NCBI GenBank assembly: GCA_016647705.1
Contig: CM028330.1
Location: forward strand, 53,618,897-53,682,896
Direction of reading: 5' to 3'
Length of the DNA stretch: 64,000 nucleotides
DNA from: Eucommia ulmoides
Taxonomy: Eukaryota > Streptophyta > Magnoliopsida > Garryales > Eucommiaceae
This document shows, in pieces, positions 1-47,075 of this stretch. The position numbers were made by a program, and so were the translations under genes. The notes beneath the pieces are model-generated. The model saw only the letters and a program-made list of their open reading frames with translations. It did no database searches and was not told the origin of the DNA. Each line of letters begins with the position of its first letter. Within the stretch, counting starts at the first letter, position 1.

Positions 1-315
1 GGCAGTAAAATAAAACTCGGACAAATTACAGGAAATAAAACACTATTTACTCTAAAATTATTTACAAGTTGGCTGAAAACATTTTTTAGATTTACAGTAA
101 ATTCAAGTTTGAAAAATGTCTACTTCAATCAAATTGACTAGTAGGTTTTCCTTATTACTACGTGGAAATTATTACTTAATTCTGTCGTGTCATTTTCATA
201 GACCAAGTCTTAGCATCAGTTTAAGAGGTTTTTGCACATTGGACATCTAAAGTTTAGGAAAAAGTTTCACTTTGGCCCCTATCTTTTCAATTTAAGTACA
301 TTAAATTTTGAAGTT
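1..315. repeat. End of a broken upstream repeat unit (unit 0): flank that precedes Copia in other units
   Basis: This stretch matches the flank in front of the Copia element of the complete units (about 8555-8883, 23085-23370, 38612-38930), including the run about a Mg-rich-looking AT tract, the phrase GACTAGTGGGTTTTCC-like and the AAGTCTTAGCATCA motif. It then stops matching at about 313-318, where the sequence jumps to the region that normally lies downstream of the small gene. No coding potential was seen. It is the visible end of a fourth tandem unit whose Copia and gene are missing. Confidence 0.75.
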
Positions 316-1180
316 CAAGTAATGTGAGATTCAACACGCCCTCTCACACGCTGGGTAGACTTTACCAAACTACTGCGAACAAATATCAATGGGCCCAAAA
401 TCGATGCGGAAATCTACATGCCCCCTCACGCTCAGGGTAAATTTTGTTAAATCACTGCGACCAGATATCAAGGGGCCTAACATTGATGTGGTATTAAACA
501 CAGCCTTTGACGCTCAAAATGGACTCTAATAAACCATTGCAAATGGATCTCAAGGTCCCAACATTGATGTGGGATTCAACACATCTAACATTAGACAGAA
601 AAAATCTGACTCTAATACCATGTAAGAATTCAATGAAGCCTTACTCTTAAAAGTCGCTAGAAAGATGAGGATTGCCCTAAACTTTAGATATAACTCAAGA
701 TCAGGTAACTAATTTTTTGGATCAATCTACGTTTATATTTTGTGTCTTAATTTTTCTCATAATATTTAGTAATATTTTAGATTTATATTTAAAATATTAA
801 AATTAATTGTTCTTTTAAAATAATTAAGGTTTAATGATCAAATACCTTTCCCTCCTTCCAAATTAGTTTCCTAGAAAACAAAGTGAAAGAGTCAACTTGA
901 CAAGTGATGCTTATCAACTTATAGAGCCACAGGAACAAAAGCATTAAATTTGGAAATAAAATCAATGACCCACCACCACCACCATCTTTCTCAGTATTAA
1001 ATGGTTTACTTGGTCAAGTAATCAATTACCTTCTCTTTCTTTTTTATTTTATTTTTTTCCTTTTTTTTTTGGGGGGGGGGGGGAGGGGGGTGGGGGGGAT
1101 TTTACAATAAATTGTATATGTGTCAACGTACGGGCACCTCAACTGATCACCTTCCCGGGTGATCTTAAAGACACACTCCC
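316..1180. repeat. Gene-downstream block of unit 0 with diverged ~82-bp tandem repeats
   Basis: This matches 16708-17620 and 32138-33060. From 326 to about 605 it contains three to four diverged copies of a unit of roughly 75-85 bp, each with the pattern AACATTGATGTGGGATTCAACAC, then CCTCACGCTCAGG, then AAACCACTGCGAAC. The rest (605-1180) is AT-rich and includes a T/G homopolymer run. No ORF of interest. The same block closes units 1 and 2, but unit 3 ends before it. Confidence 0.7.
1059..1099. repeat. Poly-T / poly-G tract (G-quadruplex-prone)
   Basis: A run of T is followed by about 29 nearly pure G bases broken by single A and T. The homologous tract is long in the next-but-one copy (about 32926-32964) but only a GGGGGAGG remnant in the middle copy (about 17515-17523), so its length is unstable between units. 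Confidence 0.85.
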
Positions 1181-3121
1181 TGTTGATCCTAAGATTTTGA
1201 TGAACAATTAAGTATTGATATTTTGATGGAACTAATGTTTTAATTGAGTGTTTCAGTGATTTAAAATTCCAGTGATGAAGATGACAAATTAAATGGATGT
1301 TAAATGATAAAGTTGAAGATATTGAAGAATTAAGAGTTTGAAGAAATTAGGGAAAACAACCTAGGTAAATTTCAACTCTTAATATCCCATTTAGGAACAC
1401 ACACGGCACAAATTTTTTTATTAATTATATGTGTTTTGATTAAGTGAAATTAGTTACTTCTATGTGATTTGAAAAAAAATAATTTTAAATGACTAAAATG
1501 GAATAAAAGAATATTAGTGGAGCTAATTTAGAAGAGAAAATAGTTTAAGAGGCAATAACATAAAAAGAATAAGCTAAAAAACGAGTTCAGAACAGAGATC
1601 CAGAAAATGGTAATTGACTGATGAGTCGACCGGACAAAGTAGTTGAAAGATCTTGTATCTCTAAGTCGACCGACAGGTCAACCGACCAAGAAAGTTGAAC
1701 TCTCTGAAACTACAAGTCGACCGATAGGTCGACTGGTGAAGGAAAAGCAAACTCTTTGAATCTACAGGTTGATAGACAGGTCGACCGATGCACGCAGCAG
1801 TGATAGCTTGGCTATAACCTAAATTGGGCAGTTGACCGAACGCATTGTTTCATGATATTGTTTTATCCGAGATTATATCCAAAAGTAGCCATTTTTTGTT
1901 AGGATTTGAGAGAGATTTCAGGAAAATTTTCTATATTTAAAATATGGTTCATATATTAATTAAATTCTATTAATATGGTTCATTAAATATTAATGTTTCT
2001 TAATTTAGTACTTGAAATAGATTCTATTCTTATTAATTGAGATTGAGAAATACTTTGAGGGTTTAATTGAGAGATTTGAAAGTTATTATTAAGTGAATTG
2101 AACCTAAATGAAGTCATTATGATATAAGAGGTCTATATGTGCTATTTATTGTCATGACACATATAAACTAGTCGTTAGAAGACTGATTTTATACTTCTTT
2201 AAATAGACCTGCAAATTTCATATATCATTAAGCAATAAACAAGAAAGAAATCATATCATATCATTGTGAGCTTTTATAAGAGTTATCCTTCTGAAATATT
2301 TTGAGTCTTTCTAAGAGACGATCTTAAAGATCAACTACTGTTAATTTTTGCTGCTACCGGATTTAAAGTTATATCGTTTTAATCATTCTTTCTTTGGATT
2401 CCGGGTGAGATCTTTCTAATTATATTCTTTCATTGCATTATTTGATCATTGTTTGGAAATTGATCTTAGAAATTGTTTCTGATTTTTTATGAAAATATTT
2501 TTACAAACAATTTCTTGAATCTGATTACGTGCTCAAATTTGCTATCCATATCTTATTAAAATCAGATTTTTCAATCTCACATTTTTCTATCACTAGACTT
2601 AGGATATTAATTGAATTATTATTTATCTGGGGTGGTAGAAGCTCCGAGTGAGATTTTCCTACTTATCATTTTATATTGGTGAGTAATGTGACGGATTAAA
2701 TATTGTTGGGGGTATTTAATCAAGGATAGTTGGGTTTCAGTCTCTTCCTGTAAAGAGATTGAGGTAGTGATTCTTCTTGGATAGAATTGCGTTGAGAGTG
2801 ATTTTGTAAAGATTCCATCCTTATCTGGGAAAAGGATAGTTGGAGTGTTTTGTGAGATTTTGATTCTTGAGCCTAATGTATAAAAAAAATTAAGTTAGTC
2901 TTTAGCTTGGTGAACCAGGATATATCTTGGTGTGTTGTATTATTAATTTGTTTATTTTTGCTGTTTGTGTGTGCACCTAGTTGATTAATTTATTCCGCTG
3001 TGATATAAAGATAATAATTAATTTAGGATTAAAATTAATTATTTGATTTATTGAATTTTATTTTGATAATTTTTAATTACTCAATTCACTCTCCCTTCTT
3101 GGGTATTCCACTAGGCCAACA
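1181..3121. mobile_element. Solo LTR, about 1.94 kb, present only before unit 1
   Basis: The homologous sites before units 2 and 3 (about 17605 and 33046) run straight through this point. Here 1941 bp are inserted, starting TGTTGATCC and ending GGCCAACA, which gives the TGTTG...CAACA ends of an LTR. No pol-like ORF lies inside, so a solo LTR is the simplest reading. At 1620-1795 it carries three or four spaced copies of a GTCGACCGA-type motif (period about 55-60 bp). The right end read from the minus strand (TGTTGGCCTAGTGGAATACC) is a type common at plant Copia LTR ends. I could not find a convincing target-site duplication. Confidence 0.65.
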
Positions 3122-3137
3122 CCACATTGACCTCGTG

Positions 3138-3376
3138 TGATATGTTTGAGATAGGGAAAACACTCTTCGAGCGAGATTCGGCTCCAATTATAGAGCAGAG
3201 AAGAAGAATCAAGAGAAGAAATTGGAGGAAGAAGAAGAAATGGAGAGAAAAGTTTCAGTGATTACCTTTCTTTCTTCATGATATAGAGAGCTATATATAT
3301 AGCTTCAGATAACAACCATACCAACAAACAAATAGATACCAACCAACAAAATAACAAATCAAAACCAAACCCAACA
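3138..3376 (-). repeat. Gypsy 3' LTR, unit 1
   Basis: This is a direct repeat of 6843-7086. On the minus strand it begins TGTTGGGTTTGG and ends CTCAAACATATCA. It contains a palindromic TATA element (GCTATATATATAGC) and a GA-rich stretch. The 5' edge on the element's strand is uncertain by about 25 bp, because the repeat continues into pol tail on both sides and no polypurine tract abuts the TG. Confidence 0.65.
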
Positions 3377-3408
3377 GAAAAATAATCAAAGCTTCTATTG
3401 TCCCTTCC

Positions 3409-5200
3409 TCACGCAGTGTAATCCTTCAGCCAAGTAGGGGGCTTCCTGATTCGCATTGGATTCTTCGTAGCCTCAGCTGATTTTGCTTCTTCTTCTGGTT
3501 CTTCCAAGGATTGCTCCAAAGGGATAGGCAATGATATATCATGCCCCCGGTCTTGAAAAACCACATTCCCTTCAAGGTACAGATCATGATAAATCTTGCA
3601 AAACTCCACGAAATCTTCCCATATAGCATTTTAAGGAGCACTGTCCGTCCACCGCACCAGAATTTGATGAACTTTTTTTCCCTGACGAAGAATTATCTGA
3701 ACGGCACAAACTACACCTAGTAAAGACAAAGGTCGATTTATCATGCTTTCCTGAGGTAGTGGGTGAGCTCCATCGGGAACTGGTCCACGAAATGGTATGA
3801 GGGCAGAGATGTGAAAACCAAATGGATCTTGTACCCGCTAGGCAGAGCTAAACGATAAGCGACGACACTAATTCGTTTAAGCACCTGGAAAGGCCCATAA
3901 TATCGCTTTGCCAACTTTGAAAATGGTCGATGAGCGACGGGTGACGGTGATCTATCAATACGGCTGAAGACGAACGAGAATTATATATCCAACTGCGAGT
4001 TGTAGGTCACGACGATGCACATTAGCCTTTTGCGACATGCGATATTGAGTTTGGCGCAAATTCTCCTTTAGGGATCGAAGCAAAGCATCTTGCTCCAAAA
4101 GTGACTCGTCGAGTGCTTGGATTGAAGTAGAGCCTTGAGTATAAGCTGGAATGGTCGGTGGAAAACGCCCGAATAATGCTTGAAAATGAGACATTTTAAG
4201 TCCACTGTGATAACTAGAATTATAACAAAATTCAGCCCATCCCAAAAAGGAGAACCAAGAGTGTGGCTTCTCATGAGTAAAAGCACGTAAGTATTGCTCC
4301 AATCCGCAGTTCACGACTTCCGACTGACCATCCGTTTGAGGATGGTATGCAGTACTATGACGTAAAGACGTCCTACTGAGGTGAAAGAGTGCTTTCCAAA
4401 AATTACTCATAAAAATGGGATCACGATCCGAAATAATCGAACTAGGAAAACCATGGAGCTTGACCATAATGTCCACGAAAACCTCTACAGATTTGGTGGC
4501 TGTAAACTTTGTTGGCAAACACCGAAATGCGCCGATTTAGTGAGACAATCAACTACCACCATGATGACCATAAAACTCCGAGAGGGCGAAAGACCGATAA
4601 TGAAATCCATGGTAACTTCATCCCAAACCAATGATGGAATAAGAAGAAGTTGGAGTAACCCGGCTGGCGCTTGGGTTGAATACTTAATTTGTCGACAAAT
4701 TAAGCATGCTGACACAGAGTTTTCCACATCTGTCCGCATTTTAGGCCAATAGAAAACGAATGCCAATTGGACCAAGGTGCATTAAACTCCTCCATGACCT
4801 GCCAATGGTATAGCATGGAATTCGTGCAACAGTAGGGGTTTCAAAGAGAAGTTAGGACTGATGTAATAACGGTGTTGAAAAAACAACAAACCATCATGAA
4901 AGACAAAATCCGAAGAGAGTGAACCCGCCCGAAATTGTTGAAGAAGTACAACCAAGTCAGGAAGTGTAGAATTTTCCTGACGAAGAGTGTCCAAACAATC
5001 CAAGGAAATGTGGTTGGAAAATTGAAGGCACAACGGTGTGAAAAACGTCGGTTGTTCCATTTCCTCTTCATGAATCTGAAACAAGGCATTCACAGCTTTA
5101 TTAGTACATCCCGACTTGTATTCAATCTGAAAATAGTAGCCCAAAAGCTTACAAATATAGACCTGTTGGTCTGGAGTGTGCACCACCTGCTGCAATAAGT
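3409..5200 (-). pseudogene. Gypsy pol remnant: RNase H C-part, integrase, chromodomain-like tail (unit 1)
   Basis: In reading order: RNase H end (HTPDQQVYICKLLGYYF at about 5160), the HHCC zinc region (HEFHAIPLAGHGG, then CLICRQIK), the integrase core with TMDFIIGL, IISDRDPIF and STAYHPQTDGQSEVVN carrying the D, D and E positions, and the GLKMSHFQALFGR region. A tail follows with a WTDSAP...WEDFVEFCKIYPD chromodomain-like stretch and an acidic PLEQSLEEPEEEAKSAEATK end. The frame shifts near 4485-4518 inside the integrase, and several stops lie between 3610 and 3954. One TAA in the tail (about 3632) is shared with units 2 and 3. In life it would integrate element cDNA; this copy cannot encode it. 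Confidence 0.85.
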
Positions 5201-5367
5201 CTTTGATGCTTTTGTGATCCGTGCAGATAACAAAAAAATCGGCCTAACAAGTATTGGCGCCATTTGTGTACAGTCTCGGCGATGGCGTGAAGTTCCTTGA
5301 GATACGTCGACGAAACCTGTAAACGTGGCCCTAACTTCTTGCTGAAGTAAGAAATGGGATGACCAGC

Positions 5368-6654
5368 CTACATAAGTATGACGCCGATACCCACATTAGG
5401 TACGTCGGTTTTAATCATGAAGGTCTCATTAAAATCGGGTATTTGCAAAACCGGAGCCTCGACCATTGCACGTTTCAAAGTATCAAAAGCCTCGACAGAC
5501 GCCGTCGTCCACGTAAATGCATCTTTGCGTAATAAATCTATGAGTAGTGTCGCAATCGTAGCAAAGCCCCGAATGAAGTGCCGATAATAATCGATGAGGC
5601 CAAGAAAACCATGGAGTTGCTTCAAAGTGCACGGGATCGGCCATTTCACCATGGCATAGAGTTTTTGAGGGTTTTCACGTTTTTCCCATAGCTCAACTGA
5701 AGTGAGGCATCGAATGGGAAAAGTTCGGGTAGGAACCGTGGGTGGTGGTTGATGTGGTACCACTGCTGTGGAAGGTAGGGTCAGAGTTGGAGCCCCTTTT
5801 GGATATGGTGCTGTAGGGGAAGCAGTCCCCGTGATCGGTTTAGTCAATCCCGTAGACGAAGGGCTAAGGGTAGGGGACTGATTCTATTTATGCCAAGGTC
5901 GAGCATTTTGCTTAGCCTCTTCATATCAAGCTTCATGAGTGCGTGCTAAGGCAAACGCCTCCATCATCGTGGATGGGCGTGAAAAAAACAGCTTACAATG
6001 AATATCCGATTTTAGACCCGTAATAAAAAAACTAATTAACAATGGCTCAGAAATTCCAGTTACTTTATTCATCAAATTCTCAAACGCTTATTAAAATTAT
6101 GCCACAATAGAAGTTTGAGTGAGCTTAGATAGATTACCTTGGTGGTCTTCATAAGTTGAAGCCCCAAAGCGATGCTTGAGACTGACCAGGAATTCCTTCC
6201 AAGAAGACGACAAAGTATTTGCCTTTATCCATTGATACCAAGCAGTTGCCCGGTTTTCCATATGAAACGAAACAATCTGCAAATGAAGCGGCTCTGGTGT
6301 GCCATGCAAATTAAAGAATTCCTCGATGCGAAAAACCCAACAGTTTGGATTCGAACCATCAAACTTCGGAACCTCCATTTTCATGGAGCATAGAACAGTG
6401 CAGAGCTCGGTACCTCCAGCAAATACATCCGTAGATTGAGACGCTGCTGGTGGTGGACCCAAAAGACTTGTCGACGGACCCGAAGAGCCACGAAATTGTG
6501 ATCGTATCTCCTCCAAGCAAGCATTAACAAGGGACATATACTGCTGCAGCGTTTGGTGAAGCATAATTGATTGCTTCTCAAACTAATACTGGTGCGAGAG
6601 TTTATGTTCCACGAATTGAGATTGGAACAGTACAATGACATCGAAATCAGCCAT
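5368..6654 (-). pseudogene. Gypsy gag fused by deletion to the RT/RNase H connection (unit 1)
   Basis: The gag start is chosen at 6654 (MADFDVIVLFQSQF), conserved in all three units. The gag core follows with MKMEVPKFDGSNPNCWVFRI, the WYQWIK stretch and LKHRFGASTYEDHQG. After a proline-rich linker (PHQPPPTVPTRTFPIRCLTS) the reading goes directly from EKRE to NPQKLYAMVKWPIP and GFLGLIDYYRHFIRGF, which is the end of RT. The zinc knuckle, the aspartic protease and the RT YxDD core are absent. The junction is near 5672. The same junction occurs in units 2 and 3, so the element was defective before the array formed. Stops lie at about 5850-6096 and 6565-6600. Confidence 0.85.
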
Positions 6655-6842
6655 GGATAGAAGCAATGAAAGCAGATAGTCTCCCGAACTAGACAATGGA
6701 TAAAGAACCTCAACCAAGATTGTGTCACTAATCAGTTGAAAGTATCGCTACTCCAAATTGCAGCGAAACAGAGAAACAAACGGAAATTAGGGCTTACGAA
6801 ATTGCAGAATCAAAGAAAAAAAGAGTTAATGAAAGCACCAAT

Positions 6843-7086
6843 TGATACGTTTGAGATAGGGAAAACACTATTCAAGCGAGTGTCAACTCCAATTATAGAG
6901 AAGATAAGAGAAGAAGAATCGAGAGAAGAAATTAAAGGAAGAAGAAGAATTGGAGAGAAAAGTTTCACTGATCGCCTTCCTTTCTTTATGATATAGAGAG
7001 CCATATATATAGCTTCAGATAACAACCATACCAACAAACAAACAAATACCAACCAACAAAATAACAAATAAAAAACAAACCCAACA
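6843..7086 (-). repeat. Gypsy 5' LTR, unit 1
   Basis: This is the partner of 3138-3376, with the same TATA palindrome and GAGAAGAAATT-rich block. Directly inside it on the minus strand is ATTGGTGCTTTCATT, positioned like a primer binding site; I did not identify the tRNA. Confidence 0.65.
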
Positions 7087-7505
7087 AAAAAAAGAATCGA
7101 AGCTTTTACTGCCCCTTACTCACATAGTGTAATCTTTCAGCCAAGTGGGGGGCTTCTCGATTTGCTTTAGATTCTTCGTAGCCTCAGCTGATTTTGCTTC
7201 TTCTTCTGGTTCTTCCAAGGCTTGCTCCGAGTGGATAGACAATGATGTATCATTCCCCCGATCTTAAAAAACCACATTGTCCTCAAGGCGCAGATCAGGA
7301 TAAATCTTGCAAAACTTCACGAAATCTTCCCACGTAGCATTTTCAAGAGCACTATCCGTCCACTGCACCAGAATTTGAAGAACTTCTTTTCCTTGACGAA
7401 GAATTGTCTAAACAGCACAAACTATAGCTGGTAAAGACAAATGTCAGTTTATCATACTCTCCTAAGGTAGTGGGTGGGCTCCATCGGGAACTTGTCCTCG
7501 AAATG
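7087..7505 (-). pseudogene. Stray Gypsy chromodomain-tail fragment outside the 5' LTR (unit 1)
   Basis: This is a second copy of the pol 3' end (compare 3377-3794). It encodes a decayed chromodomain-like region and the acidic SAEATKN tail, lying upstream of the 5' LTR. Unlike the inner copy it keeps a Glu codon where 3409-3830 has TAA. It ends abruptly at CGAAATG (7499-7505), where AT-rich DNA begins; units 2 and 3 break at the same base. Confidence 0.75.
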
Positions 7506-8131
7506 ATTTATTTTTTTAATAAATAAAATAATAATTATAATTATTTTATAAAATTAAAATATTTAAAAAAATATATATAATTAATATAGTAATTGAAAAA
7601 AATGAGATTTTTTTATTTAACGCAATTTAATAAAAATGTTTTGAAATTAAAAAAAAAAAAAAAAAAGTATTGGGTCAGTTTGAAGGGTCCACCAAATTTT
7701 ATGGCCCTAAGCAACCGCTTTCGTGGTCCTGCCCAAGGTCAATATCTATACATCATCTCCTTTTAGTTATTACTAGAGAAAAAAACACATTTCATTTCTC
7801 TTCAAATTTTTTTGCACTTCCGAAATTTTGAAAAAAATTCTCTATGCTTTAAAACTCTGAAATATCCAAATTATATCAACATAATCTAAATCGGTAACTT
7901 CCTCCGTCATTAGTTACGTGCCAAATATGAAATCGCCATCCATGTGGATAAATTCCGTTATAAAAAAAAAAAAAAAAAAAAAAAGCCTAAAAGATTGACT
8001 TGATACGATTTCAATAGTTTAGAAATTAATGTGTTCAAATTGAAAGGACACAGTAAAATTTTTCTGATTAAAAGTGCAAAGTGAAAAAACCCATTTAATG
8101 AAAAATTAATTGTTGCACTTTTTGCAAAATC
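7506..8131. other. AT-rich spacer
   Basis: No gene is seen. The stretch starts with alternating A/T tracts and poly-A runs (7645-7667, 7963-7984), followed by moderately complex non-coding sequence with CACGTG-like and CATGTGGATAAA motifs. It is conserved in the other units (21989-22605, 37366-38006). In unit 3 its beginning has expanded into an (AT)n microsatellite. Confidence 0.7.
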
Positions 8132-8552
8132 TGTTGGGATTTTATTCCCTATAGATTTAAATCTATAACACCTTAATCAACATGTCAAATCACTCAAAGT
8201 TTTAATGTACACGTAAATTACGTAGTTAGATTTATTACGATCAATTGACTTCTGATGCGGAGTCCTGTGACAATCGATCACGAGAAGAACACGGATCGAA
8301 CAGGTACGTGGTCTTCCTCAACCAAATCTCCGAAATTTCTCAATGGGATTTGTGATTCACTTCTAAAAAAGGAGAAGTGAACCGTCAAGACGATTTAGTA
8401 TTATTGGGGACCATAACCCTAGCATTACCAATTTATATGGTGTGATTAGAGTTTCTATAATTTTTTAATTTTAACCTATTAAATTTAAATAGTAAATATA
8501 ATTGTGTTAATAATATGTTGTCCAAAAGTAAATTAAGAAATATCACAGGCTG
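8132..8552. mobile_element. Solo LTR (Copia-like), truncated copy in unit 1
   Basis: It begins TGTTGGGATTTTATTCC, like the complete version at 38007-38580 in unit 3. This copy lacks an internal piece around 8455 (the ATCACTCCAACAG to CCCAAATTAATT section) and its right end is deleted, so only the left TG end is intact. Confidence 0.6.
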
Positions 8553-9264
8553 TAAAATAAAACTCAAATTATAAGAAATAAAAACCTATTTACTATAAAA
8601 TTATTTACAAGTCGGCGGAAAACATTTTTTAGAAATTTGAAAAAATGTTTACTTCAATCACATTGACTAGTGGGTTATCCTTATCACTACGTGGAAATTA
8701 TTTGCTATCAAAGCCAAAAAATAAAAATAAAAACGTGTCTGGTTTACTTAATTAAGTCGTGTCATTTTCATAGACCAAGTCTTAGCATCAATTTAAGAGG
8801 TTTTTGCACATTGGAAATCTGAAGATTAGGAGAAAATCCCACTTTAGTCTTTATCCTTTCAATTTCAATACATTAAATTTTAAAATATCTAAATTGTATC
8901 AAATAAATTCAAATTGTTAACACCATTATTATTTTTAACAAAAAAACTCTCACGTGAGCACGTATTCACGTGCATAATTAAAAATAGATGAACTAAAGTG
9001 ATAATTAAATAAAATATAAGAAGTAAAAGACAATTTACCCTTAGATATATACATAATTAACCTTAGATCAAAGATATAGTAGCATTTGGTTAGTGATTAT
9101 GTTTATACTTTCAAAATACTGAGATGTGATGGAATAAAATGAGAATTCTATTTTTGTTTTAAAATATTCCAAAAATATAAACATGTTCAGTAATTTTCAT
9201 GAAATTATTTCTTTTAATTTATGAGAACAGAAACAAAAAATACATTTGATTGCAACATTTATTC
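8553..9264. other. Pre-Copia flank and left arm of a MITE-like element
   Basis: No gene is seen. The left part matches window positions 1-315. From about 9085 (TTTGGTTAGTGATTATG) to 9264 the sequence resembles the left arm of the MITE-like element found behind each gene (15251, 30627, 45605): the GAATTCTATTTTTGT, AATTTATGAGAACA and GGTTGCAACATTT-type blocks come in the same order. The Copia then interrupts it at TATTC. Confidence 0.6.
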
Positions 9265-9424
9265 TGTTAAGATAATTGAAAAGTGAGAAACATGAACGAT
9301 ATATTGAATAATATGAGAAAAGATATAAAAAATATAACGTTATACATAAATATTTATAGGGGAAGTGGGGGTTAGGGTTTTGCCATAATGAGCCAAATGG
9401 GTAAAGCTCATTATTACATTAATA
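9265..9424 (-). repeat. Copia 3' LTR, unit 1
   Basis: 160 bp, ends TGTTAAG...TTAATA on the plus strand (the last bases are mutated from TTAACA). It contains the motif TATTTATAGG, probably the TATA region on the element's other strand, and is paired with 13660-13819. Confidence 0.9.
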
Positions 9425-9437
9425 TCCCCCCTCAAAC

Positions 9438-11349
9438 TCAAGGCGGTAAGTGGGAGGTGAACTTGAATTTGAAAACCAGAGCGTAAAAGCATCCGAGTGG
9501 ATAAACCTTAGTGAAAATGTCTGTTGTTTGATCGACTGAATTAACGAATTGGAGACGAACCATATTATAGAGAATGTGATAACGGATGAAGTGACAATCA
9601 GTCTTGATGTGTTTTGTAAGTTCATGGAATAACTCATTGTGAGCAATCTGAATAGCACTCATGTTGTCACAGAGCAAGGTAGTGACAGCAGGAAAATGAA
9701 TGCTCATGTCAGCGAGTAGCCATCGAAACCAGAGAAATTTTTGAGTTGCATTAGCCATGGCACGATATTTAGCTTCAGTATTAAAGCGAGCAACCACAAT
9801 TTGTTTCTTACTACGCCAGGAAATAAGATAATTAGCCAAAAAGAAACAGTAACCAGTGGTTGAACGTCTGTCGGTGGGGTCTCCGGCCCAATCGGCATCA
9901 GAATAAGTTTGTAAGACAAGAGCAAATTGAGCTGAGAAATGAAGCTCATGAAATAAAGTACCTTTGATATACCAAAGAATGCGAAGAACAACCAAGTAAT
10001 GGGTGATCCGGGGAGCGGACAAGAACTGATTGACCTAATGAACGACATAGGCAATATCAAGGCGAGTGACAGTAAGATATACAAGACTTCTAACCAATTG
10101 GCGATATAGAATGACATCCTAAAGAGGTGAACCATCGAGTGAGGTTAGTCTGACGTTCGGCTAGAGAAGAATAGTGGCAGTGGTTGAGTCAATGATCCTA
10201 GTCTTGAAAAAGAGATTTGAAGCAATACTTGGCCTAAGCGATAAAATATCCATCAGAACCAGATGAGACTTCAAAGCCAAGAAAATAGGTGAGCACGCCA
10301 AGATCTTTCATCTCGGATTGGCCACTGAGGAACTTTTTGAGTTCAGAAATACCACAAAGATCATCTCCAGTAATAACCATATCATCCACATACAGTAAAA
10401 GAAGGATAATACCGTTGGCAGTATGATGAATAAACAGAACTGAATCATGAGCACTAGATGTGAACCCAAACTGATGAATAGTAGTACTGAATTTGGCAAA
10501 CCAGGCACATGAAGCTTGTTTCAAACCATATAGAGCACGACGAAGACGACAAATTTTATTTCGAATGGCAGCCAGTTCGGGAGGGGTATGCATATATACT
10601 CCCTTAAAAAGATCGCCATTAAGAAATGCATTTTTTACATCCATTTAAAAGAGAGTCCATTTTTCAATGGCGGGGACGACAAGAAGTGTACGGACAGATG
10701 TTAGTCTCGCCACTAGAGCAAATGTCTATTCATAGTCAATATCATATTCCTGAGCAAATTCCTTGGCAACAAGTCGGGTTTTATATCGTTCAACAGAATC
10801 ATCAAAAAGTGTCTTGATCTCAAACATCCATTTGCACCCAATAGGAGTTTTTTCTAGGAGGCAGTCAACAATATCCCAAGTATGAGTTTTGGCGAGGGCC
10901 TGAAGTTCTTCATCCATTACTTTCTGCAAAAGAGAATTAATACTAGCCTCCTTATAGGATTGAGGCTCATGCAGGTGAAGTATAGTGGAAAAATAATGAA
11001 AATCAGAAAGGTAATGTGGAGGATGAGTTACCCTGGTAGAACGATGGGGGTGATTTGGGGCGTGGGTCTCAAAGGAAGGCAATACAGGATCGTCGACCAC
11101 AGGAAAAGTCTTAGGCATAGTCACTAGAGTTGGAAGGGTGAGATCAGTTGGTGGTTTTGGAGTAGGTTCAGCTAGTGGTTCTAGGGTGGACTCAGCATAA
11201 GAGGCAGGACTGGGCTCAACTAGTGGTGCTGGAGTGGACTCAATAGTACTTGGAACTGTATCCTCTGGAAATAACTCAATTGATAGATCAGTAAAGAATT
11301 TGGAGTTAGTGAGGGTTGACATGTCAAATGACCGTAAGGAAGAAAACAT
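9438..11349 (-). pseudogene. Copia RT and RNase H remnant, unit 1
   Basis: Reading order: a Pro/Ser/Thr-rich linker, EELQALAKTHTWDIV, KWMFEIKTLFDDSVERYKTR, MDVKNAFLNGDL, YGLKQASCAWFAKF, the RT catalytic LLYVDDMVITGDD, then RNase H with [20 protein letters not shown] and the LLCDNMSAIQIAHN end. The YVDD motif and the RNase H Asp are kept. Frames break near 10022-10234 and 10644-10726 with several stops, so no full RT is encoded. It would have copied element RNA into cDNA. Confidence 0.9.
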
Positions 11350-11392
11350 TTGATGTTCCCAAAAAACGACATGTCGCGAGATACGAAGGGTT

Positions 11393-35179: not shown

Positions 35180-35283
35180 TTGTCTACAGTCTCGGTGATG
35201 GCGTGAAGTTCCTTAAGATACGTCGACAAAACCTGTAAACTTGGCCCTAACTTCTTGCTGAAGTAAAAAATGGGATGACCAGC

Positions 35284-37365: not shown

Positions 37366-37409
37366 ATTTATTTTTTTAATAAATAAAATAATAATTATAA
37401 TTATTTTAT

Positions 37410-37474
<65 letters not shown>

Positions 37475-38006
37475 TATAGTAATTGAAAAAAAAATGAGAT
37501 TTTTTTTATTTAACATAATTTAATAAAAATGTTTTGAAATTTAAAAAAAAAAAAAAAAGTATTGGGTCAATTTGAAGGGTCCACCAAATTTTGACCCTAA
37601 GCAATCGCTTTCATGGTCCTGCCCAAGGTTAATATCTATACATCATCTACTTTTAGTTATTACTAGAGAAAAAAACACATTTCATTTCTCTTCAAATTTT
37701 TTTGCACAAATTTTGAAAAAAATCCACTTTATTCCCCATACTTTCAAACTCTGAAATATCCAAATCATATCAATTTAATCTAAATCGATAACTTCATCGT
37801 TAGTCACGTGCCAAATACAAAATCACCATCCACGTGGATAAACTCCGTCATAAAAAAAAGACTAAAAGATTGACTTGACACGATTTGAATAGTTTAGAAA
37901 TTAATGTGTTCAAATTGAAAGGAAACAGTAAAATTTCTCTGATTAAAGGTGCATAGTGAAAAAACTCATTTAATGAAAAATTAACTATTGCACTTTTTGC
38001 AAAATC
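37366..38006. other. AT-rich spacer with (AT)n microsatellite, unit 3
   Basis: A pure (AT)n run of about 50 bp occupies roughly 37420-37468, where the other units have only short A/T tracts. The rest matches 7506-8131. No gene. Confidence 0.75.
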
Positions 38007-38580
38007 TGTTGGGATTTTATTCCCTATAGATCTAAATCTATAACATCTTAATCAACATGTCAGATCACTAAGAGTTCTAATGTACACGTAAATTACGTAT
38101 CTGAATCTATTACGATCAATTGACTTTTGATGCGAAATCCTATGACAATCGATCACAAAAAGAACACGGATCGAACGGGTACATAGTCTTCCTCAACCAA
38201 ATCTCTGAAGTTCTTCAATGGGATTCGCGATTCACTTCCAGATGGGGAAAAGTGAACCGTCAAGACGATTTGGTATTATTGGGGAACATAACCCTAGCAT
38301 TACCTATTTATATAGTGTGATTAGAGTTCTCACAATCTCCTAATCACTCCAACAGATTTCGGTATCTACTCATTTAGCACACATTCTTTTGAGTAGTCTA
38401 TGGATTTACCCAAATTAATTAGATTACTAACTCATTTAACACACATTCTTTTGAGTAGTCTATGGATTTACCCAAATTAATTAGATCACTTAATTTTAAC
38501 CCATTAAAATTAAATAGCAAATATAATTGCATTAATAATATGTTCTCCGAAATTAAATTAGGAAATAAAATTTTCTAACA
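38007..38580. mobile_element. Solo LTR, 574 bp, with AAATC target duplication (unit 3)
   Basis: This is the complete version: begins TGTTGGGATTTTATTCCC, ends AAAATTTTCTAACA, flanked by AAATC at 38002-38006 and 38581-38585. No internal region is present. It contains a private ~66-bp tandem duplication (about 38355-38485) with CACACATTCTTTTGAGTAG. Confidence 0.85.
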
Positions 38581-39297
38581 AAATCACAAAGTGACAAAAT
38601 GTAACTGAAATACCAATAAAACTCAGACAAATTATAAGAAATAAAAAACTATTTACTATAAAATTAATTACAAGTTGGCGGAAAACATTTTTTAGAAATT
38701 TGAAAAAATGTTTACTTCAATCACATTGACTAGTGGGTTTTCCTTATCACTACGTGGAAATTAATTGCTATGAAAGCCAAAAAAAAAACGCGTCTGGTTT
38801 ACTTAATTAAGTCGTGTAATTTTCATAGACCAAGTCTTAGCATCAATTTAAGAGGTTTTTGCACATTGGAAACCTGAAGTTTAGGAGAAAATCTCGCTTT
38901 CAATTTCAATACATCCAACTTTGAAATATTCAAAACGTATCAATTGAGTTTAAATTGTTAACACCATTATTATTTTTAACAAAAAAACTCCCACGTGAAC
39001 ACGTGCATAATTAAAAATAGATGAGGTAAAATGATAATTAAATAAAGTATAAGAGGTAAAAGACAATTTATCCTTGGATATATACAAAATTAACCTTAGA
39101 TCAAAGATATAGTTGCATTTGGTTAGTGATTATGTTTATACTTTAAAAAAATTGAGATGTGATGGAATAGAATAAGAATTCTAATTTTGTTCTAAAATAT
39201 TCCAAAAATATAAACATGTTCAATAATTGTCATGAAATTATTTCTTTTAATTTATGAGAACAAAAACAAGAAACACATTTGGTTACAACATTTATTC
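38581..39297. other. Pre-Copia flank and MITE-like left arm, unit 3
   Basis: Counterpart of 8553-9264. It ends at TATTC (39293-39297). No gene is seen. Confidence 0.6.
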
Positions 39298-39457
39298 TGT
39301 TAAGATAATTGAGAAGTGGGAAACAAAAACGATATATTGAATAATATGATAAAAGATATAAAGAATATAATGCTATACATAAGTATTTATAGGAGAAGTG
39401 GGGATTAGAATTTTGCCCTAATGAGCCAAATAGGCTAAGCTCATTATTACATTAACA
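39298..39457 (-). repeat. Copia 3' LTR, unit 3
   Basis: 160 bp, TGTTAAGATAATTGAG...ATTAACA; polypurine complement TCCCCCCTCAAACTC follows. Confidence 0.9.
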
Positions 39458-39470
39458 TCCCCCCTCAAAC

Positions 39471-40960
39471 TCAAGGCGGTAAGTGGGAGGTGAACTTGAG
39501 TTTGGAAACCAAAGAGTGAAAGCGTCCTGGTGGATGAGACTTAGTGAAAATGTCTGTTGTCTGATCGGTTGAACTGACAGATTGTAGACGAACTGTATTT
39601 TGGAGAATGTGATAACAGATGAAGTGGCAATCAGTCTCGATGTGCTTTGTAAGTTCATGGAATACATCATTGTGAGCAATCTGAATAACACTTCTGTTGT
39701 CACAGTGCAGGGTAGTGGCTACAGGAGAAGGAATGCCCATATCAGCGAGTAGCCATCGAAGCTAGAGAAGTTCTTCAGTTGCATCAGCCATGGCACGATA
39801 TTCAGCTTCAGTACTGGAGCGAGCAACCACAATTTGTTTCTTATTACGCCAGGAAATAAGAGAATTGCCCAAAAAGAAACAGTAACCAGTGGTTAAACGT
39901 CTGTCGGTGGGGTCTCCGGCCCAATCAGCATGAGAATAAGCTTGTAAGACGGAAGCAAACTGAGCTTAGAAATGAAGCCCATGAAATAAAGTACCATTGA
40001 CGTATCGAAGAATACAAAAAACAGCCGAGTAATGGGTGGTCCAAAGAGTGGACAAGAACTGGCTGACCTGATGAACGACATAGGCAATGTCAAGGCGAGT
40101 GACAGTAAGATATACAAGACTTCTAACCAATTGGCGATATAGAGTGGCATCCTAAAAAGATGAACCATCTAGTGGGGTAAGTCTGACGTTCGGCTCGAGA
40201 GGAATAGTAGCAGTGGTTGAGTCAGTGATCCCAGCCTTAGAAATGAGATCCGAGGCATACTTGGCCTGAGAAAGAAAATATACATCAAAACCAGTTGAGA
40301 CTTCGAGGCCAAAAAATAGGTGAGCACAAGATTTTTCCTCTCGGATTGGCCACTGAGGAACTTTTTGAATTCAAAAATACCACGAAGATCATCCCCAGTA
40401 ATAACCATATCATCCACATACAGTAAAAAAAGGATAATACCGTTGACAATATGGCGAATAAACAGAGTCGAATCATAAGCACTAGGTGTTAACCCAAACT
40501 GGTGAATAGTAGTATTGAATTTGGCAAACCAGACATGTAGAGCTTGTTTCAAACTATATAGAGCACGGCAAAAGCGATAAACTTTACTTCGAGGGGCAGC
40601 CAGGCCGGGAGGAGTATACATATATACTTCCTCAAGAAGATCACCATTAAGAAATGCATTTTTGACATCCATTTGAAAGATAATCCATTTTCCAATGGCA
40701 GCGACGACAAGAAGTGTACGGACAGATGTTAACCTCGCCACCGAAGCAAACGTCTCTTCATAGTCAATGTCATATTCCTGACCAAATCCCTTGGCATAAA
40801 GGGCAAGGCTGGGCTCAACTAGTGATGCTGAAGTGGACTTTACAGTACCTAGAACTGTATCATCTGAAAATAACTCAATTGATGGATCAGTAAAAAATCT
40901 GAAGTTGGTGAAGGTTGACATGTCAAATGACCGTAAGGAAGAAATTATTTGATTTTCCAA
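39471..40960 (-). pseudogene. Copia RT and RNase H remnant with in-frame deletion, unit 3
   Basis: In 40169-40960 a leader ending SLALYA is joined in frame to [20 protein letters not shown], skipping the linker and the KWMFEIK region kept in unit 1. MDVKNAFLNGDLLEEVYM and FLLYVDDMVITGDDL follow without a stop, so this is the longest continuous RT reading in the window. The RNase H end (39471-39740) is in another frame. Confidence 0.9.
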
Positions 40961-40999
40961 AAAACGACATGTCGCGAGATACGAAGAGTTTTAAAAATG

Positions 41000-43659
41000 G
41001 GGTCCCAGCACCAATATCGCTTATGTTCGATGCCATATCCAATAAAACAACACATATAAGCCCTTTGTTCCAGTTTGTTAATTTAAGAAGAACAAAACAA
41101 GCGCAACCAAAGACTCTAAGTTCAGAGTAATCGAGAGGTTAACCGAAAAGACGCTCAAATGGAGACTGATTTTGAATTGTAGCAGAAGGGACACAGTTTA
41201 TTGTATAGACGGCTGTGAAGGCAACATCACCCCAAAAACGCTCAAGACATGATGAAGAAATGAGGAAAGCACGAACTGTGTCAAGAATATGTCTATGTTT
41301 ACATTCGACTCGTCCATTTTGTTGGGATGTACTAGGACACGAGCGATTCGGGGTGGTCATGGGTCGGGCCGGGCTCGGGCAGGGCTGGGCCGGGCTTAGA
41401 CTAAGGTATTACAAAAAAATATTAGGCCCGAACCCTATGGTCGGGCCTTAATTCCATACCCAAGTCCGGCCTTATAAAAAATACTTAAACCCAAAGCCCA
41501 GCCCTAGGGCCCCAGGCCTAATAAAAAAGCCTAGGGCCCTAGGCCCGACCCTAGCCCTATAAGAACATAACAAAATGAACAAAATGAATAAATCAAATCT
41601 GATCTGAAGTAACAAGAACATAAACAAACACAAAACGAACACAACAATATGCATCACTTGAAAATGTTATTTCTCAGTACAAATGTGAAAAAAAATACAT
41701 CATCACTAACACAGTAATTACAGGAAAAAATTTGAAGTTCAATTTCGGATTAGAAAAGGCAAAAACAATATATCACAAGCATAAATCAATTACCTAAAAT
41801 CCATAACGGCAGCGACGGCGGTGACGTTCAACGACATGTTGGAAACGAAGGTCGGATCTCTCTTTATCTCTCCAACGGCGGCGGCGAATGGAGAAAACAA
41901 AGGTTGGATTTACTGATTTAGGGTTAGGGTTGTGTTCAGCGGTGGTGGCAGCGGGAAGGTCGGATTTCTCTCTCTCTCTCTCTCTCTCTCTCCAGCGGCG
42001 GAGGGGAATGGAGGAAACGAAAGTCGGATTTATTGATTTAGGGTTAGGGTTGTGTCTATCGGCGGCGGTAGCGGGGAAATAAAGGTCGAATTTCTCTCTC
42101 TCTCTCCAACAGCAGCGGGGAATGGAGGAAACAAATGGCGATTTACTGATTTAGGGTGAAGAAGTAGGAACTCTCTCTCACATCTCACTTCTTTCTCCAG
42201 CGGCGCGATTTGTATTAGGGAACTAGGGTTGTGAACTTGTGATTGTCTTGGGTCAATGCACTGGGTGTATAATGTATGTGTGTGAGTGTGTGTATATATA
42301 TATATTTATTTTAATTATCCTTCGGGCCGGGCGGAGTCGGCCCTAAAAAATTTTGACCTTGCCCAAGTCCGGCCCTAAATTTGATCGGGCCCTAATATCT
42401 AGACCCAAGCCATGCCCATGGGCTCAAACCCTAAGCCCAAACTCTAAAAAAACAAGGATGGGCCGTTCGGGCTAGGCAGGCCCCCGGGCCCATGACCACC
42501 CCTACGAGCGATAGGGGAATGTACTATTTTTACAAAGCAAGTTAAGAAAAGCACGATCCTTGAATTCTGTTGCATTATCTGAGCGGAAAACTTTGATATT
42601 TCTAGAAAATTGTGTTTGAACCATAGAAGAAAACTTAGAATATATTTGGAATAGTTCGAATTAATGTTTCATTAGAAACAACTATGTATATCGAGAGTAG
42701 TCGTCCACAAAGATAACAAAGTAATGACAACCACCAATCGAGACATGAAGAGAAGGCCCCCAAATATTATAATGAATTAGATCAAATGATGCAAGAGAAA
42801 TAGACTAACTTTCTTTGAAAGGTAGGGCTGGTCGTTTTGCCAGTTGACAATGGATACATCTAAAGGACTCGTGCTGAATTGAACCTAATTGACCGCTAGA
42901 GATAAGAGATTTGAGTCGGCTAGATAAAGTGTGGCCCAAACAAGTATGTCAAATTTGGGATAGTAAGAGAAACGCTGCTGGTTGTGGAAATAAGGATAAG
43001 GATGAGGAAGAGGATACTGGCGGTAGTGATAAGGCTGCACAGGTTGATGAAGAGACATGTGGTGATGATGGAGTTAGAGATGGAAGGTGCAAACTGGTAA
43101 GTTTAAATAGGCGTCCAATCTTACGACCAGTTCCAAGAGTTTCTCTTGTCCGAGAATCTTGCACACAACAACGACTATTAGAAAATATGATTTCAAATTC
43201 TAATTCACAAAGTTGTCCAACAAACAATAGATTTAAAATGAGTTTCGAAATCAAATACGTGTCAAAAACAGAAAGATAAGAAGTAAAAACCAGACCGGTA
43301 TGAGTAACACGCATTTGAGAACCATCAACAATATGAATATTAGGAATATTCATAGCGGAGAATTTGATTGAAAAAGTATTAGGATCAAATATCATGTGAT
43401 TACAACAGGCAAAATCAAAGAACCAAGAAGAGTTACTTGTAGTAAGTGAAAGAGCAGATGAAAGGTTTGTACCATTATTATTTTTGAAGAAAATATGAAG
43501 GAAGAGTGAGGTCAAATGTGTAATAGATATGTTGACACTAATGTAGGTAGGATCTGAACCCTCTTTGGCATTGATAATGAGCAAAGAACCCACAGACATC
43601 ACTGTTAAACATGGAGAAACTGTAGTCACGGATAGATTCAGATGGCCAAAATTGTCCAT
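41000..43659 (-). pseudogene. Copia integrase, pre-integrase and protease remnant, unit 3 (split by hAT)
   Basis: The longest N-terminal part of the three (42949-43659) has MDNFGHLNLSVTTVS, WFFDFACCNHMIFDPNTF (protease DSGA replaced by DFAC), IVDGSQMRVTHTG, YLISKLILNLLFVGQLCELE and TGRKIGRLFKLTSLHLPS. The integrase end (41139-41360, CPSTSQQNGRVECKHRHIL) lies on the other side of the hAT element. Confidence 0.85.
41348..42504. mobile_element. hAT-type non-autonomous transposon, 1157 bp, same insertion as in unit 2
   Basis: Flanked by CGAGCGAT at 41340-41347 and 42505-42512, the same octamer as unit 2. The ends are GGGGTGGTCATGGG and CCCATGACCACCCCTA; the first base or two of the left end are mutated (TCGGGG for TAGGGG). 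It contains about 190 bp (about 41600-41790) missing from the unit 2 copy, plus the same ~110-bp internal repeats (about 41885-42125). Confidence 0.9.
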
Positions 43660-44503
43660 GAACCGGTATTAAATCTCGAAGAACCGGGCGAGAAACGGAT
43701 GAACCCGCATAGAAACCACGCGAATATAAAGGAAAGTATATTCCGTGAGTCTCAAACCACAAAATAAAGGCCAAAAATAGAATTAAAATGTCGAAAAATC
43801 CCAGGAACCGATCCAACTTGGCAGAAAATCGGTAAAAAAAAATGCCTGAACCGATTCAAAGAAGATTTATTCAAAGAACCGGTGACATGGCGCCGATGTG
43901 GACAGAGGTGAAAGTCGGCATTGACGTGGCGACGATCAATGATGACGTGGCTAATGACGTGCCCAAGCAACTAGGACTGATTGGGTGCTGTCTGCTGACA
44001 GGGCAGTGACTTGGTAGCTGACGTGGCGGAAAAAAAAAACCGCAGGAGGCGTGTGAGATCAACATGTGGTAAATTAACACCTCTTAGCTGTGCGTGAGGG
44101 CGCATGGAGGCTCGAAATTAACCATGGCTGGTTTCTTTTGACTTATCTCGCCGAGACGGTTCTGATTATATGGCCCGTAGATGAATTTAGAGCACCGGTT
44201 GAGGCGATGGAGCCCAAAATCCGAGACGTCAAGGTTGGGTGGTACTGGAGGCTCTTGGTGGCACGTGACAGTGCATGAAATGATCCGGTGGTAGTGATTT
44301 TTGTGGCGTTTTGTTCGTCTCTGAAAGACGAAGGCAATGGTGTGGTGATTGTTGATACCGAAGTAGTAATGAGACCTTTAGCAGTGACAAAATCCACAAG
44401 AGAAAAGGGAATCGGCAACAACGATAACGGCAGCAGCGGAAGCTTTTGGGTTGCGAAATATTTTAGAGAGAACAGGTTTAAGAAAGACTTGCTCTTGATA
44501 TCA
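43660..44503 (-). other. Copia leader without recognisable gag; antisense ORF (unit 3)
   Basis: Counterpart of 12839-13659. The plus-strand ORF 44288-44509 (73 aa) has CSSLKDEGNGVVIVDTEV, MRPLAVTKSTREKG and FWVAKYFRENRFKKDLLL. On the element's own strand 44143-44421 is open but shows no gag motif. Confidence 0.5.
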
Positions 44504-44663
44504 TGTTAAAATAATTGAGAAGTGGAAAACATGAACGATATATTGAATAATATGAGAAAAGATACAAAGAATACAATGATATACACAATTATTTATAGGA
44601 GAAATGGGAGTTAGAGTTTTGTCTTAATGGGCCAAGTGGATTAGACCGATTATTACATTAACA
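44504..44663 (-). repeat. Copia 5' LTR, unit 3
   Basis: 160 bp, TGTTAAAATAATTGAG...CATTAACA, then TATTC. Confidence 0.9.
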
Positions 44664-45015
44664 TATTCTTTTTCTTTTCTTTAAATGTATGGTGCCTAGC
44701 GAAGTGGTGGTAGCCAGGACATTGGTAAAGGCAGGAGGCAGTGATGCCCTAATATTTTTTTGTTTCTGATGTTATTGAGGAATTCAGGAAAAAAAATTGA
44801 ATTTGGCAAATATGTTCCTGCAGTCAATCTTACCAAACGGTGGAAATCGTCATTTTTGGGCTATACAAAATATTTTCAAAATAAGAATAGGTGACTAAAT
44901 GATACTTTTTTTAACCTTTTTTTTTTTTTTTCCTAATGGTCTAGTCTACCCATTATAGTTGACATAAAGAGGAGTGCAAAGAATTTACTCCACGACCAGT
45001 CCATGACAACACCCC
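44664..45015. other. MITE-like right arm and shortened upstream region of gene copy 3
   Basis: Matches 29306-29745 but lacks about 53 bp at 44982-44985, which removes the CAGCTTAAGCTTTAAGGTG block conserved in copies 1 and 2. Confidence 0.6.
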
Positions 45016-45023
45016 TATATATG
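45016..45023 (+). promoter_or_regulatory. TATA box of gene copy 3
   Basis: TATATATG in ACACCCCTATATATGC; only 134 bp before the ATG, so this copy has the shortest leader. Confidence 0.7.
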
Positions 45024-45149
45024 CAACACCTCTCTAAGCCAGTGTATTCACCTCTCTCTCTCTCTCTCTAAACCAATATATTTCATCAAAGTTCTCTCTG
45101 TCTAGATCAGTATATTCACAACTCTCTCCCTCTCTCTATATATATAAAA

Positions 45150-45506
45150 ATGATGAAAATCGTCGATTCTCTCTCCAATGACCTACTCACCTTAACCAGA
45201 AGAGCAAAACCCGGGAAATTGAACGCTCCGCGCCCTGTATACAGAGACGAGCTGGACAAGAAGCCACGGGAGACCAACACCGAATACAAACCATTGCTTC
45301 CAAAAGATGGAGTTAAAGTGAAGATCTTGATGACAAAGGCAGAAGCAGCTCAACTACTGTCAAGGTGTAAAGACGGCGGCGTTCTTGAATTTAAGGATGT
45401 TGCTAATCAGCTTGTCCAAATCCCTACCAATCGTGTTAACGTTGTTTCTATTACCACAAGCAATCAACGTCAGCTCAAAACAATCACTGAAGAAGAAGAA
45501 TTCTAG
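45150..45506 (+). CDS. Small plant-specific protein of unknown function, copy 3 (118 aa)
   Basis: An intact ORF with the same length and ends as copies 1 and 2. It carries Asn10, Lys38 and Val55; position 55 is Ile, Leu and Val in copies 1, 2 and 3. The stretch GGVLEFKDVANQLVQIPTNR is identical to copy 2. The leader is short (45024-45149) and ends in the same TATATATATAAAA as copy 2. The upstream region lacks a conserved block, so its expression may differ. Function unknown; family (DUF7890-like) from memory. Confidence 0.85.
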   Translation: MMKIVDSLSNDLLTLTRRAKPGKLNAPRPVYRDELDKKPRETNTEYKPLLPKDGVKVKILMTKAEAAQLLSRCKDGGVLEFKDVANQLVQIPTNRVNVVSITTSNQRQLKTITEEEEF

Positions 45507-45604
45507 GTAGTATTTTTTAAATTTTTTTTTTCAAGAGAATTAGTTAAAAAAAAAAAAATAGCATTCGGGCACAAACGGTTGGGAAGGGGTTTTTGAACAC
45601 TAGC

Positions 45605-46039
45605 TAGGTGACGTTTGGTTAGTGTTTTTGTTTTTCTGTTTCTACTTCCAATAAACTAAGATGTGTTGGGATCAGAATTCTATTTTTGTCCTAAGTATAG
45701 CGGAAATAGAAACTTGTTTAGTAACGACCAATGTCCTGAATGTATTATTTTTAATTTATGAGAACAAAACAAGAAACATTTGGTTGCAATATTTGATTTT
45801 TTTTTTAATATATAGTGGCCGGCCGGATAGCGAAAGAAATAGTTTTGTGAGAGTGAATAAGAATCAACATTTTTTTTTGTTTCTCGGGTTCTCAAAGAAT
45901 TAAGAAAATAGTCTCAATTTACTCCCAAAATTTTGGGGACATAAACATATTTACCAAACACATTTCTTTACATAAATTCCAAAATTTTGGAAGTGAGAAC
46001 AAAAATCAGAGAACAAAAACAATAACCAAACGATGCCTA
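45605..46039. mobile_element. MITE-like element behind gene copy 3 (clearest inverted ends)
   Basis: The left end is TAGGTGACGTTTGGTTAGTG; the right end read in reverse is TAGGCATCGTTTGGTTATTG, and the inverted similarity continues through TGTTTTTGTT. Such TAGG-type ends fit hAT-like MITEs, but the flanking octamers (ACACTAGC and AATCTTAC) do not match. 435 bp, no convincing ORF. Confidence 0.55.
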
Positions 46040-47075
46040 AATCTTACATAAGGGAGGCACACTAAATAACCGCTAGGATAGAAGACTAGGGTTCCTTTGA
46101 TGAGTTTTTTTATTTAGAATAGTGATTGAATTATGATTGAGTTTTTTTTATATATTATTATATTAAAATAAAAGACATAACAGTCAATTTGAAGGGGTCT
46201 CCAAAATTTGGAGATCGTAGACAACCGGATTGGTGGCTTTCCTTGCACGAAGTTCCAAGTAATAAAATGATATAAACTTTTAATATTCAAAGAGATGTTC
46301 AATTTTTCAAAACTCCTTAAACTGATATAAACTTTTAATATTCAAAGGAGATGTTCAATTTTTCAAAACTCCTTAAACTAATCAATAGGTGTTAATTCGG
46401 TTGGTAAGGGAGAATGTCATTTCCTTGTCAACTAAAATTTGACTCTTTTGAGAAATATTCTAAAAATTAAATCTTAAATTTAATTTTGACCAAGTCAATA
46501 TAAAAGAGTGCATCTTTAAGATCAACCAGATAAATGATTTTCAGGTGCGCGTAAGGTAGTGCGAAAATCTTACCGTAAAAAAAAAATCCTTAAACTAAAT
46601 TTACTTTTTTTAAAGTGTTAAAGGCCCGTTTGGTTGGCTAATTATCCTACTGTATGATTTATTTTACTTTTTCATGAATTGATTTGTATATTTACCCATT
46701 TACTATGATTTAATTAAATTTATATATTGTTTGTTTGAACAAAGAAATATACAATTATTTTAGCTTAGCTTAGTTAAATTTTAAGTTATATTTTACTCCA
46801 ATTACACGAGGACATAACAGTAGAACTAAATTGATTAGCTAGTTAATTCAAGTGTTTTTAATTCTTACAACCAAATAATTCATCAATTGACTAATTGAAA
46901 AAAATAGTACAATTTGTGAATTGAAGAACAACAAGACCAACCATTAGGAGATACTAACCTAAAATCGTATAGTTTTAAGTGAAATAACTCTTTTCATGTA
47001 TAAACTAGTTTGGGACGTCACAATAAGGGAAGCGGAATTCAACATTTTTCCTCACGCACAACCTTGACTTGCACG
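46040..47075. repeat. Gene-downstream block, unit 3 (diverged, ends the array)
   Basis: Recognisable counterpart of 15613-16600 but more diverged than units 1 and 2 are from each other. A private tandem duplication of about 57 bp lies at 46266-46379 (TTTTCAAAACTCCTTAAACT ends each copy). No gene. Confidence 0.7.

Follow-up and report, generated by a model that had tools for sequence, protein, structure and literature searches.

A DUF7890 gene in a mosaic tandem array of retroelement-laden units in Eucommia ulmoides

Introduction

Unequal crossing-over is known to duplicate chromosome segments locally in tandem. The locus described here, in which a small gene of the DUF7890 family is repeated together with two retroelements in Eucommia ulmoides, looks like an ordinary case of such duplication, and its history is well resolved. 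The sequence studied is a stretch of 64,000 nt (CM028330.1, positions 53,618,897-53,682,896, assembly GCA_016647705.1), called the window throughout; units and features are given in window positions, negative positions lie upstream of the window, and C6 marks chromosome coordinates. A literature search for comparable loci found none. With regard to the mutational pattern, a study of the wheat VRN2 region used the transition excess at cytosines as a proxy for methylation (PMC2996936).

Results

Three direct units and an element-free fourth gene copy

Comparison of the window with itself, the check that an initial annotation had suggested for its tandem units, shows that the array is real: positions 1-47070 hold three direct units, each about 15-16 kb long. 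All three lie on the forward strand and keep one order, namely left flank, Gypsy element, 1.7-kb segment, Copia element, gene and tail. Unit 1 (316-16587) consists of a left flank (316-1033), an insertion (about 1034-3122), Gypsy, the 7507-9263 segment, Copia, the gene and a tail that we call tail A; unit 2 (16654-32020) is a mosaic with a unit 3-like promoter and gene and a unit 1-like tail; and unit 3 (32087-47070) ends in a divergent tail B that runs on to about 48960 as old downstream flank. The inserted stretch of about 2 kb between the left flank and Gypsy is private to unit 1. In a self-comparison of the 144-kb region obtained by extending the window by 70 kb on its upstream side and by 10 kb on its downstream side, neighbouring units were offset by 14484-16392, and high-scoring segment pairs longer than 2 kb showed 81-91% identity between units, with 75% for a shorter piece in the tail. 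Gypsy and Copia account for 55-65% of the units (8,940/16,392 in unit 1, 9,928/15,433 in unit 2 and 9,686/14,929 in unit 3); the earlier description of units made "almost entirely" of retroelements overstated their share.

A protein search of the whole 947-Mb genome returned four matches to the gene; all are stop-free and together they span no more than 71 kb of C6. A Pfam profile search placed the same four loci over the cut-off, with a further two weak ones falling short of it; both searches were six-frame and intron-blind. The window does not reach the fourth copy, c0, which is located at C6:53593425-53593778, upstream of the unit 1 copy by 40 kb, with its coding sequence (CDS) at -25471 to -25115. 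It shares the left flank, the 8537-9263 segment, the gene and the tail with the units but has neither Gypsy nor Copia, and its sequence runs uninterrupted through the Copia site, which is therefore empty. The c0 tail is broken by a 12.5-kb long terminal repeat (LTR) element (-24184 to -11674, C6:53594712-53607222) whose LTRs differ by a Kimura two-parameter distance (K2P) of 0.116, and beyond it the tail resumes in pieces, with sequence also found after unit 3. The broken fourth unit counted in the initial annotation was rejected, and the window contains none: pieces of the stretch after unit 3 (46765-48960) recur at -11664 to -4341, downstream of c0, and this stretch is read here as old downstream flank. 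The same order and strand of the units was confirmed, and the real fourth gene copy is c0, which lies upstream and carries no retroelements. Window positions 1-312 are a 73% fragment of the 8537-9263 repeat.

Retroelements and their age relative to the units

The Gypsy elements lie on the reverse strand at the same site in each unit (3122-7505, 17606-21988 and 33047-37365), the first with LTRs at about 3138-3794 and 6843-7505; the Copia elements, also on the reverse strand, occupy 9265-13820, 23762-29306 and 39298-44664, the first with LTRs of 161 bp. A Pfam scan of the element open reading frames (ORFs), which covered unit 1 only, detected RT_RNaseH_2 and Retrotrans_gag in two of the four Gypsy ORFs, and RVT_2 in one of the three Copia ORFs, with gag_pre-integrs and rve below the cut-off in another. 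We take Retrotrans_gag and RT_RNaseH_2 to be gypsy-associated domains and RVT_2 to be the copia-type reverse transcriptase. Together with LTR pairs of about 660 bp in the one element, and paired 161-bp LTRs and a 5-bp target duplication (TATTC) in the other, they place the elements in Ty3/gypsy and Ty1/copia, in agreement with the names first given to them. No clear target duplication was seen at the Gypsy edges inspected.

Gypsy LTRs have diverged from each other within an element by K2P 0.152, 0.146 and 0.161 (units 1, 2 and 3), more than the same LTR has diverged between units (0.081-0.104), which argues that the elements inserted before the units multiplied. For Copia the LTR-LTR K2P is 0.154-0.183 (22/161, 25/160 and 25/161 differences, 13.7-15.6% raw) and the divergence between units 10.7-12.7% raw, a small margin on short LTRs; its priority to the amplification follows rather from the insertion site and the TATTC duplication, which are common to all three units. 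By these comparisons the elements were already old before the amplification, and the proposal that the small gene was amplified together with dead retroelements is borne out. On a rough scale, with a borrowed wheat transposable element (TE) rate of 1.67e-8 (PMC2996936), the Gypsy LTR distances would put unit divergence at about 2.4-3.1 million years and the insertion at about 4.4-4.8 million years.

The segment at 8537-9263, present in c0 too, had been called a solo LTR. With 40 of 2362 candidates scored, it had 41 matches. Those that run over all or nearly all of its length are confined to the three units and c0, and 35 of the 36 matches elsewhere covered only its last ~190 bp. Among the candidates scored, full-length relatives standing as LTRs elsewhere were not found and the label was rejected, the dispersed part being this ~190-bp end.

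Mosaic structure of the units

The four copies were aligned with FFT-NS-i; because this left the CT-rich leader, and certain stretches relative to c0, misaligned, five segments were realigned with a slower method; topology sites were polarised with c0 as outgroup. Altogether 153 sites are informative, 92 of them grouping units 2 and 3, 36 units 1 and 2, and 25 units 1 and 3. The segment counts leave out 55 of these (29, 10 and 16), namely 17 in the leader past the TATA-like box, all of which group units 2 and 3, and 38 outside the listed segments, in 1034-7506, 8131-8595 and 9264-13821, where c0 is element-free or badly aligned. To the left of the gene and through it, 60 of 73 sites group units 2 and 3 (nine units 1 and 3, four units 1 and 2), and in the tail at 15561-16587 units 1 and 2 are grouped by 18 of 18.

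From Copia to the TATA-like box, in consecutive windows each some 120 columns wide, unit 1 is 23, 11, 3 and 6% away from c0 and 16, 22, 13 and 7% away from unit 2, and past about 15545 unit 2 shifts from 4% off unit 3 to 0-2.5% off unit 1. The switch in topology falls upstream of the gene in unit 1, at about 0.75 kb, and downstream of it in unit 2, at about 0.5 kb. Tail A (15561-16587, its unit 2 counterpart reaching 32020) differs by 2.7% between units 1 and 2 and by about 19-20% from tail B of unit 3, and transversions between units 1 and 2 are fewer in the tail than in Gypsy (5/1024 vs 87/4367, p=2.5e-4). Short dispersed repeats lie inside tail A; two pieces of the tail, where the initial annotation had listed an element like a miniature inverted-repeat transposable element (MITE), are dispersed in the genome, with 40 of 2674 candidates scored.

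The units are direct, adjacent and recombinant, as is expected of tandem segmental duplication by unequal crossing-over, and the simplest history would consist of two unequal exchanges, one on either side of the gene. That these were crossing-overs instead of conversion tracts is what we infer, and conversion would leave an identical trace.

Gene copies, protein and leader

The gene copies at 14760-15116, 30130-30486 and 45150-45506, all on the forward strand, each keep an intact ORF of 118 residues, as had been noted. Across the CDS of the four copies, residues 10, 11, 19, 24, 38, 55, 61, 86, 103, 105 and 106 vary, which confirms the copy-specific residues 10, 38 and 55 and adds eight more; the unit 1 copy has eight differences from c0, all of them non-synonymous. 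The three window proteins match Pfam PF25418 (DUF7890, a domain of unknown function) with 90.6-94.9 bits (cut-off 26; E 4.7e-26 to 2.1e-27), residues 54-99 falling on profile positions 2-47 of 47; they fit the family, no difference from it was found, and their first 53 residues are outside the domain. No relative with a solved structure was found for the protein up to an E value of 1, structure prediction from the three window copies gave a mean predicted local distance difference test score (pLDDT) of 43, a literature search for DUF7890 found no paper, and the window held neither an Rfam family at gathering score nor a transfer RNA.

A TATA-like box, CCCTATATATGCA (14231-14243, forward strand), stands 529 bp upstream of the unit 1 ATG and recurs at 29743, at 45013 and, in c0, at -25884; it is identical in all four copies and is probably a TATA box. 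Between it and the gene is a CT-rich 5' leader of tandem repeats with a 99-bp period (14456-14747 on the forward strand in unit 1, 29760-30111 in unit 2), the length of which varies between copies: its first part is missing in units 2 and 3, and most of it in unit 3, where the leader is cut to about 125 bp past the TATA-like box. The gene copies may well be active, and the putative low-methylation island described below is indirect evidence that they are treated as genes.

Mutation spectrum of the gene and of the elements

Singleton changes among the three units, their direction taken from the majority of the three, set the gene apart from the elements mainly in transitions at C/G, which number 3/156 in the CDS and 328/1915 in Gypsy (p=5e-9). 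By context, Gypsy has 91/334 at CG (27%), 82/281 at CHG (29%) and 155/1300 at CHH (12%), Copia 30, 30 and 23%, and the CDS 1/31, 0/28 and 2/97. Transversions are equal in the gene island (14567-15424, forward strand), which lacks this footprint, and in Gypsy (19/693 vs 121/4306, p=1), and those of the CDS alone are not significantly below Gypsy (5/356, p=0.13). If the CDS mutated at the Gypsy rate, it should carry about 12.4 synonymous transitions; one synonymous difference was observed, and selection on the protein leaves such changes in place. The footprint extends beyond the elements, as the non-coding stretches 316-1033 and 7507-9263 carry it too. The contrast follows the pattern of methylated-cytosine deamination, and methylation is its probable cause.

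Other features of the window

Downstream of the array, 49700-53538 is a separate repeat area with copy offsets of about 266-574 bp and others of about 2.8-3.3 kb. A DUF1985-like ORF, below the cut-off, lies at 56082-56579, and fragments of a Mutator-type transposase lie at 60632-62301 (DBD_Tnp_Mut and Transposase_mut over the cut-off, MULE below it); 56082-62301 could perhaps be parts of a gene-carrying Mutator element.

Discussion

History of the locus

Starting from the observed units, the empty Copia site, the age order of the Gypsy LTRs, the topology switches and the mutation spectrum, we propose that a block with the DUF7890 gene was duplicated locally, giving the parental c0 and a second copy, and that Gypsy and Copia then entered on the 5' side of this second copy. 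The units of about 15 kb would have arisen when copies paired out of register and exchanged unequally at least twice. In unit 1 the junction would lie about 0.75 kb upstream of the gene, with the element-laden left part before it and a c0-type promoter, gene and tail after it; in unit 2 it would lie about 0.5 kb downstream of the gene, between a left part and gene from unit 3 and a tail from unit 1. The elements, already old, would have gone on decaying quickly by transitions at cytosines, like methylated DNA, and the gene island would have been spared this decay and look intact by comparison. We give this history as a whole a probability of roughly 0.78.

Several observations weigh against it. 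In c0 the Gypsy site is not cleanly empty, for it holds about 170 bp that are missing from the units, and the transversions between Gypsy LTRs (4.0-5.1%) are close to those between c0 and the units in the left flank (3.6-3.9%), which would make the insertion and the split of c0 from the array nearly the same age. Informative sites are mixed at 15117-15560 (four for units 1 and 2, three for units 2 and 3), and at 7507-8130 they do not resolve the tree (5, 4 and 1). Transitions at A/T are also fewer in the gene island (8/438 vs 94/2391, p=0.026; CDS 3/200, p=0.12), a deficit that methylation of cytosines would not predict by itself, and the leader beside the ATG is not poor in transversions (9/116 between c0 and unit 2). 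Finally, the CDS and 3' untranslated region (UTR) of units 2 and 3 differ from c0 by 0-2.2% in transversions, against 3.9% in the left flank, up to 8% in the promoter (c0 and unit 2) and 7% in tail B; a history of two exchanges and nothing more is thus too simple, and the gene has probably also undergone conversion or been kept under constraint.

Selection, gene conversion and assembly as alternatives

The survival of only the small gene had been taken as a hint of selection, and selection for copy number or dosage could in principle keep the copies intact while the elements decay. All four ORFs are intact, the CDS is free of indels and the TATA-like box is invariant, as such selection would have it; in star-tree simulations all four ORFs stayed stop-free in 56, 35 and 22% of runs with 12, 20 and 30 substitutions, and in only 6% under an element-like load of 60. 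With the 12-substitution figure and the Gypsy indel rate, at which about one frameshift is expected over the four-copy tree, the joint chance of four intact in-frame ORFs without selection is roughly 0.21, so that, at the rate of the gene itself, the intact ORFs are weak evidence of selection; only element-like mutation of the gene would make them stronger evidence. Among the 12 variable CDS columns (one with three states), 11 are non-synonymous; counting each column as one change and ignoring transition bias, the chance of at least 11 is 0.003 at a ratio of non-synonymous to synonymous rates (dN/dS, omega) of 0.3 and 0.20 at omega 1, and values of omega below about 0.58 are rejected at the 5% level. 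As the main cause of the low gene divergence, purifying selection was rejected on these grounds: dN/dS well below 1 was not found between copies, and a deficit of changes appears on the c0 line alone. There, private changes of c0 or the stem number 0/357 in the CDS and 5/339 in both UTRs (p=0.027; 3/267 in the 3' UTR alone, p=0.078), and transversions 0/357 vs 44/2744 in non-coding segments (p=0.0075), a set that takes in the doubtful leader and leaves out the tail; these p values are uncorrected for multiple comparisons. Unit 1 changed as fast in its CDS as in its UTRs (7/357 vs 8/339, p=0.80), and the CDS of units 2 and 3 had fewer changes than the UTRs without reaching significance (1/357 vs 5/339, p=0.11, and 1/357 vs 4/339, p=0.21). 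Constraint is therefore indicated for the c0 or stem line only, the inference from survival to selection does not follow given these mostly non-synonymous changes, the chance of intactness and the mutation-spectrum contrast, and no result of our analysis bears on selection for copy number, which we regard as quite improbable here.

Repeated gene conversion could by itself have homogenised the gene segment and given it a conserved look. Topology switches on both sides of the gene, the finding that no two copies differ by more than one synonymous change, and the CDS and 3' UTR of units 2 and 3, which lie closer to c0 than their flanks do, speak for it, and we hold it as a tentative possibility; against it, the island matches Gypsy in singleton transversions and as a whole is thus not younger, a counterpoint that is less clear for the CDS alone. 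A haplotig or misjoin in the assembly, as a source of the units, is very unlikely: the element bodies are 7-15% apart between units, with private insertions and deletions, and hence do not look like duplicated haplotypes, and the 144-kb region contains no N. Beyond the proposed history of duplication, insertion and exchange, each copy might be a self-maintaining unmethylated island in heterochromatin, the best-matched stretch at which unequal exchange starts, so that the gene would amplify itself, with unit 1 (eight amino-acid and no synonymous changes relative to c0) diverging in function; this we consider unlikely.

Comparison with known systems

The locus offers a worked example of how a pattern in which the gene survived and the elements died can come from the mutation process and not from selection, and insertion, amplification and exchange can be ordered from a single genome because an element-free copy persists nearby. 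Copy-specific sites are now available for the only DUF7890 genes detected in the Eucommia ulmoides genome. Its likeness to tandem segmental duplications by unequal crossing-over lies in the direct units of the same order, the shared pre-duplication insertions and the mosaic switches; it differs in that two older retroelements make up more than half of each unit and that the switches bracket the gene. In the wheat VRN2 study (PMC2996936), TEs likewise show an excess of CG, CHG and CHH transitions over genic non-coding DNA, with a TE rate about three times higher. Both cases rest on sequence comparison; the present one differs in that the contrast is seen within a single tandem array, where the gene forms an island of few transitions.

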